Part shown: piece by piece, positions 22,408 to 28,248 of the stretch
How the letters are laid out: every line of letters starts with the position of its first letter
How positions within the stretch are numbered: position 1 is the first letter of the stretch
From: an uncultured Veillonellaceae bacterium
GTDB lineage: Bacteria; Bacillota; Negativicutes; Veillonellales; Negativicoccaceae
Length of the DNA stretch: 39,261 nt
NCBI GenBank assembly: GCA_945876385.1
Contig: CAMCNU010000011.1
Span: 1 to 39,261 of the forward strand
Direction of reading: 5' to 3'
Notes under the pieces: model-generated
Database searches by the model: none
Told to the model about the DNA's origin: nothing
Seen by the model: only the letters and a program-made list of their open reading frames with translations
Translations under genes and position numbers: made by a program

Positions 22408-23146
22408 GTTTAACCACCTTGCCCCTCAAGTTTTTAGCGAGCGGATTTTCAAGCCCGCTCCGCTTTGCCGCTGCTCTCCAGTCGAGCGTGCCGTTCCCGA
22501 CCCCTTTCACCGTTTCAAGCACCGATAATTGATTTGTAATCGTTACCGCCGCCGGAAGTTTTTCATCAGGAGTATAACGCCGCTCTTTTACCTTTAGCGT
22601 CTCCTTGCCGTCTTTATCCTTGACGACTTCGACCTCTTGAGTACCAAAAGGAACGTATTCACGCAGTTTGATTGCTATTTCGATGTCAGTTGCGTTGTTG
22701 GCGTTTTCCGATATCGTGTAATCCTCGATAGTGGTCAAAATATTGGTATTCCACAACATCGCGCCGTCAAAATTCATGCGAGTAACAATAAATCGCATCG
22801 GATTAACGTTTTCTTTCGCGTCTTTTATAGCGTCTAAAAACGTCGCCGCCGGCTTGTATGAAAACGAATTTCCAAACAACCGCCGCGCGCCGAACCGTTT
22901 CGCCACTTCTCCGACCGCGTAATCAATTAACCCGCGCCGAAGTGAAGTATCGTAATTAGCGAACGGATATTCACGGTTGGGCAACATGAATTTGAACGCT
23001 ATATCGGTAAGTCCGGGCGCCTTGATGATCGTCGCTTCGCCCTCATCAATCAGATTGATAGTCGTATTTTTGCCGTTGATCGTCGTGTCAATCGCCGTCG
23101 GCGCGACGGGAAGAAGGGTCTCACCTAAATAGAAGTAGTAACTCAT
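22400..23146 (-). CDS. tail protein (XkdP-like) with a degenerate C-terminal LysM-like end
   Basis: 248 aa. Residues 1-165 match the XkdP head (SYYFYLGETLLPVAPTAIDT, NTTINLIDEGEATIIKAPGL, TRMNFDGAMLWNTNILTTIE). XkdP proteins end in a LysM domain; here the end reads TVKGVGNGTLDWRAAAKRSG, then NPLAKNLRGKVVKL, which keeps the outline of LysM (Gly, Trp, Asn-Pro, Gly) but has lost much of the start. Overlaps the tape measure stop by 4 nt. Confidence 0.8.
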   Translation of the reverse strand: MSYYFYLGETLLPVAPTAIDTTINGKNTTINLIDEGEATIIKAPGLTDIAFKFMLPNREYPFANYDTSLRRGLIDYAVGEVAKRFGARRLFGNSFSYKPAATFLDAIKDAKENVNPMRFIVTRMNFDGAMLWNTNILTTIEDYTISENANNATDIEIAIKLREYVPFGTQEVEVVKDKDGKETLKVKERRYTPDEKLPAAVTITNQLSVLETVKGVGNGTLDWRAAAKRSGLENPLAKNLRGKVVKLG

Positions 23147-25134
23147 TTCAGAACCCCCTCCGTTCCCGTCTCCAACGCCTCCGCGATATTTTCACAGAAC
23201 GCCCGCATCATGCCGTCAAAGTTGCGTTCGCCGCCGCTCGTGACGTGCAAGCCGCCCGCGTCGACTTTAACAGTCGCATTCACGTACCGGTTGATCGCCT
23301 CGCGCTCTGCCGCGTCGCGCAAATATTTCAGATCGCTTACCGTGCTATCGAGCGCATCGGCTGCGCGTTTACCTTGTTTCGCGCCCTCCGCCGTGTTATC
23401 GGCGATAGCGTTTTCAACGTCACTTGCGCCACCCTTAGGAGGCGTGCCAAACGCGCCGTTCGGGTTACCGATGTTGCCGAGAAAGTCCTCAAACTTTTTG
23501 CCCGTCGCGTAACCGGAAGTCGCCCAACTGCCAGCGTCAACATAACCGGCGCGCCCCAAAGTGAACGCACCCGCAATGTCTTTGCGCGCAAGCGTCGGCG
23601 CGCTTACCGTTCCGACGTTCATGCCCGGAAGCTTATTAACCAAGCCGATAATGCTGTTCACCGCGTCAGCTACCAGCGAAACAACGCCGTTCCAAATATC
23701 GGCAAACAGATTATAAATAGCCCCGAGCGGATCAACGAAAACCGCGCCCAAGAAGTTCGCGAAAATAACAAATTGATTCCAAACCATCACCAGCATGTTG
23801 TAAATTCCAGCAAACACAAAACTAAACGCGCCGAAAATCAAGCCCGTAGCCGAGACGCTGGTGTCAGCGAAGTAATTTACCGCCGCCACCGCACCGTAAA
23901 ATACCGCCACCAAGCCGACCACCGCGCCGACTAGCCACGTTACCGGGCACGCGTACATTGCCGCGTTCAAGCCGCTTTGTGCGTAAGCTTGCGCAATGGT
24001 CGCCGCCGTCGCTGCCCATGTATGAACCGCATGCAACGCCAACGCCGCCGCCGATATTCCGGCTCTGCCGGCTGTAACTAACATCATGCCGCCCGCATAG
24101 CCGAGGGCCATACTTACCGCCGTTAGTGCTCCTTTAACTAACACGCTATGCTCGTTAAATGCCGCGTTAATCGTGTTTAAGCCGTCGGCTGTCTGATCGA
24201 TCAGCCACGTTACCGCCGTTACTGCGCCCATGAATACGGGGGCTAATCTTTGCACTGCCGTCGATACGTTATCAACGATGGTTTGAACGCTCTTACTGTT
24301 GGCTAATCGTGTAATTGCGCCAAACACAGGCGCGAACGACACGACCGCCATATTGCCAATCTTTTTGAAATGGTCGCCCCAGCGTTTCGGCACTTTCGCG
24401 AATGCGTCATCAATATCTCCCATATGCTTTAGGATTGAATCTTTGATGACCGCAGACGTGATTTTGCCTTCTGCCGCTAACGCTTTTACTTCGCCGCGCG
24501 TCACGCCGAGCTCTTTCGAGATCATGTTTAGGAGCATAGGCGCGTTTTCAGAAATTGATCTAAATTCGTCGCCTTGTAGTCGGCCGCTACCGAGCGCCTG
24601 CGTCAACTGCAACATCGCGCTTTTTTGTTCCGCAACGCTTGCACCGCCAACCGCAAAAAGCTTTTGAATGCCTTCCGTAAATCCGACCACTTCCGCCGGA
24701 CCGGGGAACGCGCCACGAGCGTTAATCGCCAGTTTTGAAACCGCGTTTGCCATATCGAAATAACTGCCGCGCGCCCGTTGTGCGCTTTCAAAGATAGCCT
24801 GATTAAGTCCGGCCACCTCTTTCTGTGAATTAGCCACCAGTCCGAGCCGAGCTTGAATGCCCGCGAACTCTTCCGCCGATGTGCCCACCGACGCTATTGC
24901 CGAGCCGAGCGCCCGCGCTCCGGCGATTGCTCCAGCCGCAAGGAAACTGCCCGCAAATACGGATCCAAGCATATTGAATTTACCTACCGACTGCTGCGCT
25001 GCCGTACCCGCCACCCGGGTCGAGCCGGTGAATTTATTCAACTTGTCGGAGGCTTTCTCCGTCGCGTTTGCAATTTTAAGAAGCGGGGCGCTCATTCCGT
25101 CGCGTAGCATTATGAAGTTTTTAATAGTCGCCAT
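23143..25134 (-). CDS. tape measure protein
   Basis: 663 aa, setting tail length and filling the tail lumen. Residues 1-200 carry the TIGR02675-type tape measure domain (RDGMSAPLLKIANATEKASD, then AGSFLAAGAIAGARALGSAI). A hydrophobic middle, including WLVGAVVGLVAVFYGAVAAV at about residue 400, fits a DNA-ejection membrane segment. Only 663 aa, so a short tail if length scales as usual. It sits directly after the frameshifted chaperone gene, as almost always seen. Confidence 0.93.
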   Translation of the reverse strand: MATIKNFIMLRDGMSAPLLKIANATEKASDKLNKFTGSTRVAGTAAQQSVGKFNMLGSVFAGSFLAAGAIAGARALGSAIASVGTSAEEFAGIQARLGLVANSQKEVAGLNQAIFESAQRARGSYFDMANAVSKLAINARGAFPGPAEVVGFTEGIQKLFAVGGASVAEQKSAMLQLTQALGSGRLQGDEFRSISENAPMLLNMISKELGVTRGEVKALAAEGKITSAVIKDSILKHMGDIDDAFAKVPKRWGDHFKKIGNMAVVSFAPVFGAITRLANSKSVQTIVDNVSTAVQRLAPVFMGAVTAVTWLIDQTADGLNTINAAFNEHSVLVKGALTAVSMALGYAGGMMLVTAGRAGISAAALALHAVHTWAATAATIAQAYAQSGLNAAMYACPVTWLVGAVVGLVAVFYGAVAAVNYFADTSVSATGLIFGAFSFVFAGIYNMLVMVWNQFVIFANFLGAVFVDPLGAIYNLFADIWNGVVSLVADAVNSIIGLVNKLPGMNVGTVSAPTLARKDIAGAFTLGRAGYVDAGSWATSGYATGKKFEDFLGNIGNPNGAFGTPPKGGASDVENAIADNTAEGAKQGKRAADALDSTVSDLKYLRDAAEREAINRYVNATVKVDAGGLHVTSGGERNFDGMMRAFCENIAEALETGTEGVLK

Positions 25135-25137
25135 AAT

Positions 25138-25314
25138 TTACCCCTTTTTTAGCTTTTCCGCCTCTTTCTTTTTCGCGCGTGCGTACTCGTCAATAAACGC
25201 GACTACTGCCGCCCGTTCCCAATCGGGCAACTCCATTACTTCGTGCGGCAATAGTCCGCATTTGATAAACGCAAAATACGCAACGCACGTTTCCGCGTCT
25301 CCCTGCGTTAAGAG
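25138..25314 (-). CDS. -1 frameshift extension of the tail assembly chaperone (GT-like)
   Basis: A 58-codon frame with no start of its own that begins at the slippery site and ends with TAA 3 nt before the tape measure ATG. It reads LLTQGDAETCVAYFAFIKCG, then LPDWERAAVVAFIDEYARA and a Lys-rich end. Such tails (G plus T) are made by ribosomal frameshifting in many contractile and siphovirus tails; the fusion here would be 204 aa, with the 147-aa form made without slipping. Confidence 0.82.
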   Translation of the reverse strand, partial: LLTQGDAETCVAYFAFIKCGLLPHEVMELPDWERAAVVAFIDEYARAKKKEAEKLKKG

Positions 25315-25751
25315 TTTTTTACTGTTTTGACCTTGTCACCCATGCCGATGTCGTAGCCGCACGCTTGCTGCGCCGCCAAGAGTAAGTCGGTCAATTCGCC
25401 CGGAGTAAGTAACTTTTTCAGTAAATGCTCCGCACCCGCCGCTCCGTAAAACTCCTGCAATTCGCCATCGTTCAAGTTCGGATAAGTGACCGCGGCAACC
25501 GCGACATCAAGAAATACCGCCTCTGTGTCGGTCTCCTTTTTGAAGTCACGCGTGCCTTTAACCGGAACGCGTTTAGTATTCCGGTCGACAATTTCCTCTA
25601 CTTCATCATTCGTTAATACCCGCAACTCCCACTCAATCGGCTTGCCGTCGTCGTCTTTCATGCGTTTAGAAGCGACGTATTTCACGGGCTCGCGCCGCAA
25701 CAACTCCTCGCGCATAAACGCCTTTAAGCTGCGCGCTTTTTCCTCTGCCAT
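25308..25751 (-). CDS. tail assembly chaperone (XkdN-like), short form
   Basis: 147 aa of the XkdN type: ARSLKAFMREELLRREPVKY, then EWELRVLTNDEVEEIVDRNT, FLDVAVAAVTYPNLNDGELQ and LLTPGELTDLLLAAQQACGY. It assists tail-tube assembly on the tape measure. Its last codons contain the A AAA AAC slippery heptamer, so a fraction would continue into the extension. Lies between tube and tape measure genes. Confidence 0.9.
   Translation of the reverse strand: MAEEKARSLKAFMREELLRREPVKYVASKRMKDDDGKPIEWELRVLTNDEVEEIVDRNTKRVPVKGTRDFKKETDTEAVFLDVAVAAVTYPNLNDGELQEFYGAAGAEHLLKKLLTPGELTDLLLAAQQACGYDIGMGDKVKTVKNS
25314..25320 (-). promoter_or_regulatory. -1 ribosomal frameshift slippery site A AAA AAC
   Basis: Read in the chaperone frame the minus strand gives GTA AAA AAC TCT TAA, so A AAA AAC fits the X XXY YYZ rule exactly, two codons before the zero-frame stop. 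A -1 slip continues the frame as CTC TTA for 58 codons. Confidence 0.85.
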
Positions 25752-25762
25752 GTCCTACCCCC

Positions 25763-26245
25763 TTACGCTTGCATGCCGTCGAGCATGCGGAAGTTTTTCG
25801 GGATCTTGACCCCTTCAAAAGTAAACCCGATTTCATCTTCTAACAGTTTTCCGTCAGCGTCATAGCTTGCTACGGTCGTTTTATCAATGTTGCATCCGGT
25901 AAGAATAACAACGCGGCCGCCCGCGTCACTAGTCGGATCTTCGTTTTCCACTTGCAGGTCAAAATAAGTGTCGATGCCCTCATTAACGAGCCGCAACATC
26001 ATATCATCGAAAAGCGCCGTATTTTTATAAATGGTCATAGTGCCCGACCCTTTCATGCTCACGGACTTGTGCCCCTTTTGCATGCGGCCGAGAATTGCGA
26101 CCTCTTCTTTTTCCTTTTCGAGCGTCGCCTCTAACGTTTTCGCCTGAAAAAGCAAGTAGCGTTCACCCTCTCGTGTCGTGATAAAGGCGCGCGCCATTTT
26201 CGCCGATAATGTGTCTTTTGCAAGCATTGTTTGAAGATTATCCAT
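25763..26245 (-). CDS. tail tube protein (XkdM-like, DUF2001)
   Basis: 160 aa with the XkdM order: a short N-terminus, REGERYLLFQAKTLEATLEK, then KGSGTMTIYKNTALFDDMML and FTFEGVKIPKNFRMLDGM. It forms the inner tube of the contractile tail and is downstream of the sheath, as in PBSX. ATG behind GGGGTGA. Confidence 0.9.
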   Translation of the reverse strand: MDNLQTMLAKDTLSAKMARAFITTREGERYLLFQAKTLEATLEKEKEEVAILGRMQKGHKSVSMKGSGTMTIYKNTALFDDMMLRLVNEGIDTYFDLQVENEDPTSDAGGRVVILTGCNIDKTTVASYDADGKLLEDEIGFTFEGVKIPKNFRMLDGMQA

Positions 26246-27617: not shown

Positions 27618-27818
27618 TTACTCGACCTCCTTATTAATATCTTTACGGACAGACGCGTTAAGCAGTTCATGTAGCTTTTGCTCTACCTCGTCCGCCGTGT
27701 AGAATTCATCATCTTTTAATGCCATTGTCAAAAGGTCGCGGAACTCCCGCCACCGCGCCGACTTTAGAATGTCCGCGCCGAGAAACATTTCCGCGTCTTT
27801 AGTTTTTTTCGTTGCCAT
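27618..27818 (-). CDS. small phage protein, unknown (66 aa)
   Basis: ATG at 27818 behind GGGTG; ends directly before the sheath start. A Lys-rich N-terminus (MATKKTKDAEMFLGADILKS) is followed by a helical ARWREFRDLLTMALKDDEFY and DEVEQKLHELLN. No family recognised; overlap of 20 nt with the tail terminator gene shows it belongs to the late operon. Confidence 0.7.
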   Translation of the reverse strand: MATKKTKDAEMFLGADILKSARWREFRDLLTMALKDDEFYTADEVEQKLHELLNASVRKDINKEVE

Positions 27819-28248
27819 CGTTCACCCGCCCTTTCGCGTCTAACGTCTGCATATCCTCGACCCGTTCGCGCGGCCGCATGATGTGAAAGTCGTATGAAAT
27901 AAAGAAGTGCAGCACCCCATCTGTTTCTCTCCATTCCATACGCTCCCCACGCACCAATGCGCCGCCTACGTCGATATACTCCAGCACGAGCGTCATCGTA
28001 TCGGCGATGTCGGTCAACTCCAGCGTGTCGATATCCACCCCGTCGCGCGTTGCGAAATAGTGAATGTCGAAATGATTCGTTCGCCAATAGCGACGGTCGA
28101 GCTCCTGATCTTCGCCGTGCGTGATCCTCTCAATGAAAAAACACGGGAAAATAGCGTTTTGTCTTTGAAAATCGGTATACACGGGAACGCCGAACGCGTT
28201 ATACAGTGCCGCCGATACTCCGTCGATTAAATCTCTATTTCCCGCCAT
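27799..28248 (-). CDS. tail terminator-like protein (XkdJ-like)
   Basis: 149 aa. Features IDGVSAALYNAFGVPVYTDF, PCFFIERITHGEDQELDRRY and a C-terminal HFFISYDFHIMRPRERVEDM fit the tail-terminator/minor tail proteins found just before the sheath gene in PBSX-like phages. Role inferred from order and weak resemblance. Confidence 0.72.
   Translation of the reverse strand: MAGNRDLIDGVSAALYNAFGVPVYTDFQRQNAIFPCFFIERITHGEDQELDRRYWRTNHFDIHYFATRDGVDIDTLELTDIADTMTLVLEYIDVGGALVRGERMEWRETDGVLHFFISYDFHIMRPRERVEDMQTLDAKGRVNDGNEKN

Follow-up and report, generated by a model that had tools for sequence, protein, structure and literature searches.

Frameshifting in the G/GT genes for tail chaperones is widely conserved among long-tailed phages (Xu, Hendrix and Duda 2004, as reviewed in PMC5009743). 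In phage lambda, the partner of the short form is the tape measure protein and that of the T part of the long form is the tail shaft subunit; the short and long products are made at a ratio of about 30:1 (PMC5009743). The locus considered here lies in a 39,261-nt stretch of DNA from an uncultured Veillonellaceae bacterium, the whole of which was analysed and is referred to as the window. It resembles lambda gpG/gpGT in the position of the gene, between the tail tube or tail shaft gene and the tape measure gene, and in a slip near the 3′-end, in the -1 direction, that would yield short and long chaperone forms, as read here from the sequence. Unlike lambda gpG/gpGT, the gene belongs to the XkdN/TAC_5 family of a contractile tail, its heptamer is A_AAA_AAC where that of lambda is G_GGA_AAG, and its extension domain is probably a different one from gpT.

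The short form is of the same family as XkdN of PBSX and YqbN of a Bacillus subtilis prophage-like element (PF08890; PDB 3klu). Mass spectrometry of virions of the Clostridioides difficile phage phiCD508 failed to detect its putative XkdN-like chaperone, gp57 (PMC11948020), a result consistent with a chaperone role. The heptamer A_AAA_AAC is inefficient in Escherichia coli yet is used as a frameshift site by IS elements and by the haloarchaeal virus HCTV-2 (PMC4066793, PMC5009743), where it likewise makes a G-T fusion, and a low rate of slippage would therefore be unsurprising. The IS elements and HCTV-2 represent other hosts and other gene families, whereas across the XkdN family a single heptamer is near-invariant and is followed 0 or 1 codon later by a stop. 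The frameshift phenomenon as such is textbook knowledge, and what is new is a further case in the XkdN family; a literature search on XkdN and frameshifting, with key subscription papers outside its range, found no paper describing it, and an earlier description is possible.

The gene, its slip site and its neighbours

In a Pfam profile search, residues 9-145 of the short form matched PF08890 (Phage_TAC_5) with an E value of 2.3e-39 and a score of 134.8 bits (cut-off 27), and the match was full-length, spanning profile positions 1-135 of 135. The short form also matched phrog_389 (E 1e-37) and is related to YqbN, for which a structure has been solved (PDB 3klu, E 5.6e-12). The gene occupies the G/GT position between the tail tube (PF09393) and tape-measure (PF20155) genes (Table 1), and a sheath gene also flanks it. 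The window also encodes portal, scaffold, Mu F-like head and baseplate proteins, a gene content that suggests a prophage with a contractile tail. The nearest named relative, with a 99% identical XkdN, comes from a Veillonellaceae metagenome-assembled genome, and a search of viral contigs with the XkdN protein of the window gave no match.

Table 1. Features of the XkdN-like locus and its immediate neighbours
Feature	Position	Strand	Basis
Tape measure protein gene, start 3 nt past the extension stop	23143..25134	(-)	PF20155 TMP_3, E 3.6e-46
-1-frame extension, 58 codons + stop, C-terminal part of the predicted long form	25138..25314	(-)	Direct reading, peptide conserved
Zero-frame stop TAA, one codon past the heptamer	25308..25310	(-)	Direct reading
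Slippery heptamer A_AAA_AAC, canonical X_XXY_YYZ phase	25320-25314	(-)	Direct reading
XkdN-like tail assembly chaperone, zero-frame short form, 147 aa	25308..25751	(-)	PF08890 Phage_TAC_5, phrog_389, PDB 3klu YqbN
Tail tube protein gene, upstream neighbour	25763..26245	(-)	PF09393, E 4.3e-43

On the minus strand the gene ends, by direct reading, in GTA AAA AAC TCT TAA. The sense codons of the extension (25314-25141, minus strand; n=58; peptide LLTQGDAETC...KLKKG) run into a TAA stop at 25140-25138, which is followed by ATT and then by the tape-measure ATG from 25134. Fusion of the two frames by a -1 shift gives a product of 204 aa, against 147 aa for the short form. The first-pass annotation had reported this heptamer, the 58-codon frame, the two product lengths and the coordinates 25138-25320, all of which are correct on direct reading. 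It had also proposed a tail-chaperone fusion of the G/GT type, a proposal supported by the PF08890 identity, by the G/GT position and by the conservation of heptamer, frame and extension.

On this sequence evidence, programmed -1 ribosomal frameshifting very probably operates at the locus, within the XkdN-type tail assembly chaperone gene of a prophage with a contractile tail. For this prophage we infer the slippage, its rate and the functions of the proteins as follows. Most ribosomes would reach the TAA and release the short form, and a minority would move back by one base at A_AAA_AAC, where the tRNAs for Lys and Asn would re-pair one base upstream, and would go on to complete the long form. 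If lambda gpG/gpGT is a guide, short-form molecules would coat the tape measure protein, and long-form molecules would use their C-terminal domain to recruit tail tube subunits.

A second gene of the tail module (27799-28248, minus strand) also ends with an in-phase A_AAA_AAC directly before its stop. Its -1 frame continues no more than 11 codons beyond the stop, and the heptamer at this position is probably a coincidence.

Conservation of the signal and competing explanations

Homologues were taken from relatives, from the class, from the phylum and from phage records, and the count covered 104 sequences, that of the window among them, no two of which were identical in their last 100 residues. 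An in-phase A_AAA_AAC is found near the 3′-end in 100 of the 104, and in 99 of them it stands 0-1 codons ahead of the zero-frame stop (offset 0 in 85, offset 1 in 14). The five exceptions comprise two sequences with A_AAA_AAA (L102 and L125), one with the heptamer 8 codons upstream (L106) and two with none (L076 and L108). The heptamer as such is nothing unusual, AAAAAAC turning up 24 times in the window; it exceeds chance because of its conservation. Elsewhere in the homologue genes, AAA accounts for 54% of Lys codons, AAC for 46% of Asn codons and A for 23% of third positions. The naive log10 P that all 99 sequences arrived at the heptamer by codon choice alone is about -124, a figure that is uncorrected for shared descent and means simply far from chance.

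The extension is conserved together with the heptamer. It has a median length of 59 codons in the family (usually 47-75 aa), and its peptide can be aligned, with a recognisable sequence shared among homologues. Comparison of the window with each of its two nearest relatives shows mostly silent codon changes in the extension, with 8 silent and 2 replacing in one case and 8 silent and 1 replacing in the other. Heptamer, frame and extension peptide are retained in relatives down to about 25% identity. A comparison with related prophages had been suggested at first pass, on the argument that loss of the heptamer or of the 58-codon frame would speak against a frameshift; both are kept, and the sequence half of that objection therefore falls away.

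The same observations bear on other ways of accounting for the extension. That it is a small gene in its own right, read from an internal start codon or by re-initiation once the short form is finished, is very unlikely. Pieces of the extension do match eight small PHROG families that carry no description, indicating that some annotators call it as an ORF of its own; however, the -1 frame opens a median of only 6 codons ahead of the slip, only 2 of 99 sequences offer a start codon in that frame before the slip, and the first ATG, GTG or TTG inside the extension falls at scattered positions and is absent in 9. A separate gene would also leave the near-invariant heptamer unexplained, and the idea was rejected on the short opening and the scattered or absent starts. 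An ordinary frame-breaking mutation in a decaying prophage, or an assembly error, has next to no probability, given that the same split occurs at the same heptamer in 99/104 homologues and in 13/14 annotated phage records. Nothing specific to the window speaks for such an accident, and this conservation rules out a frame-broken pseudogene or a sequencing error.

Slippage could also be a property of RNA polymerase, with some transcripts carrying the long form in frame after a slip on the A run. The site does contain six consecutive A's, and homopolymer runs can cause slippage, but six A's are short for transcriptional slippage. What is conserved is a phased heptamer that ends in C beside a stop codon, with a stem-loop in most members, a combination that fits ribosomal slippage better and makes the transcriptional route extremely improbable. 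In the two A_AAA_AAA exceptions (L102 and L125), either the ribosomal or the transcriptional route is possible.

Downstream stem-loop and other candidate stimulators

A stimulator of ribosomal frameshifting may be a structure downstream of the slip site or a Shine-Dalgarno element upstream of it. Folding of 60-90 nt from just past the heptamer gave mean z values of about -2.1 to -2.5, compared with +0.2 to -0.6 for flanking windows of the same size. Against synonymous-codon shuffles, which preserve the extension protein, a 72-nt fold had a mean z of -2.09 (s.e.m. 0.13, 98 sequences), and a control window further downstream had a mean z of -0.31. These results support the conclusion that most members of the family carry an RNA stem-loop where a frameshift stimulator would sit.

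The 5′ arm of the stem-loop starts most often 7-8 nt past the heptamer; the end of the 3′ arm falls near +47 in one sequence set and at about +64 to +70 in another. Since the two 3′ arm positions occur in different sequence sets, there appear to be two architectures in the family. RNAalifold at default settings found no consensus structure in broad groups, a failure that probably reflects the different registers of the arms, and an arm-swap test was used in its place. In this test the arms of a sequence paired better with each other than with swapped arms (z -6.8 in one group, -3.9 to -4.3 in the other; control arms +0.8 and -1.0). The groups overlap, and the 5′ arm of each group shows some excess of pairing at the 3′ position of the other as well (z -4.8 and -3.0). 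Among 27 sequences, 77.5% of cells were paired, compared with 73.5% in shuffles and 43-58% when the arms were slid; the covariation score was equalled by 1 of 500 shuffles, a value that is uncorrected for relatedness among the 27 sequences and that uses a structure derived from them. Stem-loops are seen in most XkdN homologues, for example in L005, L028, L064 and L087, at about +7 to +48 nt past the heptamer.

For the window and its two closest relatives, the stem-loop z against synonymous shuffles was +0.3 to +0.5, that is, nothing beyond the shuffles, and against dinucleotide shuffles the window gave -0.4 to -2.1. Minimum free energy structures exist in the window, but on the synonymous-shuffle values no stem-loop stands out there; by inspection, a long helix predicted in the window has a mismatch in both near relatives. 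Lineages such as that of the window may do without a stem-loop, helped for example by the nearby stop codon.

An upstream Shine-Dalgarno stimulator shows no clear enrichment in the family, where the median best-site energy is -3.3 in homologues and synonymous control alike; sites at or below -5 kcal/mol occur in 31% of the family and 22% of the control. No strong upstream Shine-Dalgarno sequence was found in the window, the best site being -3.0. The suggestion that the site works because the host lacks queuosine in tRNA-Asn is unsupported, since the host genome has a TGT gene.

A broader generalisation can be put forward tentatively, and is rather more doubtful than not: the whole XkdN class would share one near-invariant signal, consisting of A_AAA_AAC with a stop 0-1 codon on and usually a stem-loop 7-8 nt downstream, under host recoding rules that may differ from those of E. 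coli, and some lineages may manage without the stem-loop. The suggestion of different recoding rules in XkdN hosts follows from the inefficiency of A_AAA_AAC in E. coli.

The extension domain and its annotation

Searches of the extension against Pfam and NCBIfam gave no significant match, and neither has a model for the domain; on its sequence, the extension is an unnamed conserved domain. Very weak hints were obtained to DUF6760 (E 0.06) and Phage_TAC_6 (E 0.04). A prediction made at first pass, that standard annotation would miss the extension, is borne out by the phage records: a CDS joined across both frames is present in 0 of 14 annotated records, and 13 of the 14 have the heptamer 0-1 codons ahead of the stop together with the extension. 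The case gains modestly in interest from having so uniform a signal across the family, from the stem-loop and from an extension domain without a name.

Recognition of the long form, which annotation leaves out and whose C-terminal domain has no Pfam or NCBIfam model, would correct the product list of a very widespread family of tail genes, found in PBSX-like elements and in C. difficile, lactobacillus, streptococcus and gut prophages. For lack of the long form, XkdN-type tails or tailocins could fail when expressed in a foreign host that frameshifts inefficiently. Members that have a stem-loop and members that do not form a natural series in which A_AAA_AAC can be studied outside E. coli.

In Streptococcus phage EJ-1 (L131, 1486-2082), the short and extension parts lie in a single ORF of 198 aa, and the fusion protein therefore reads as one chain. 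Compared with the near-identical phage MismyG (L130), EJ-1 carries an additional A immediately upstream of the site, which may be natural or may be an old sequencing error. XkdN-type chaperones are called 'portal protein' in several public phage records (L135, L137, L138). In C. difficile phage phiC2 and Brevibacillus phages Abouo and Osiris (L087, L133, L134), 0.7-2 kb separate the extension stop from the tape-measure gene and hold extra small genes; the corresponding gap in the window is 3 nt.
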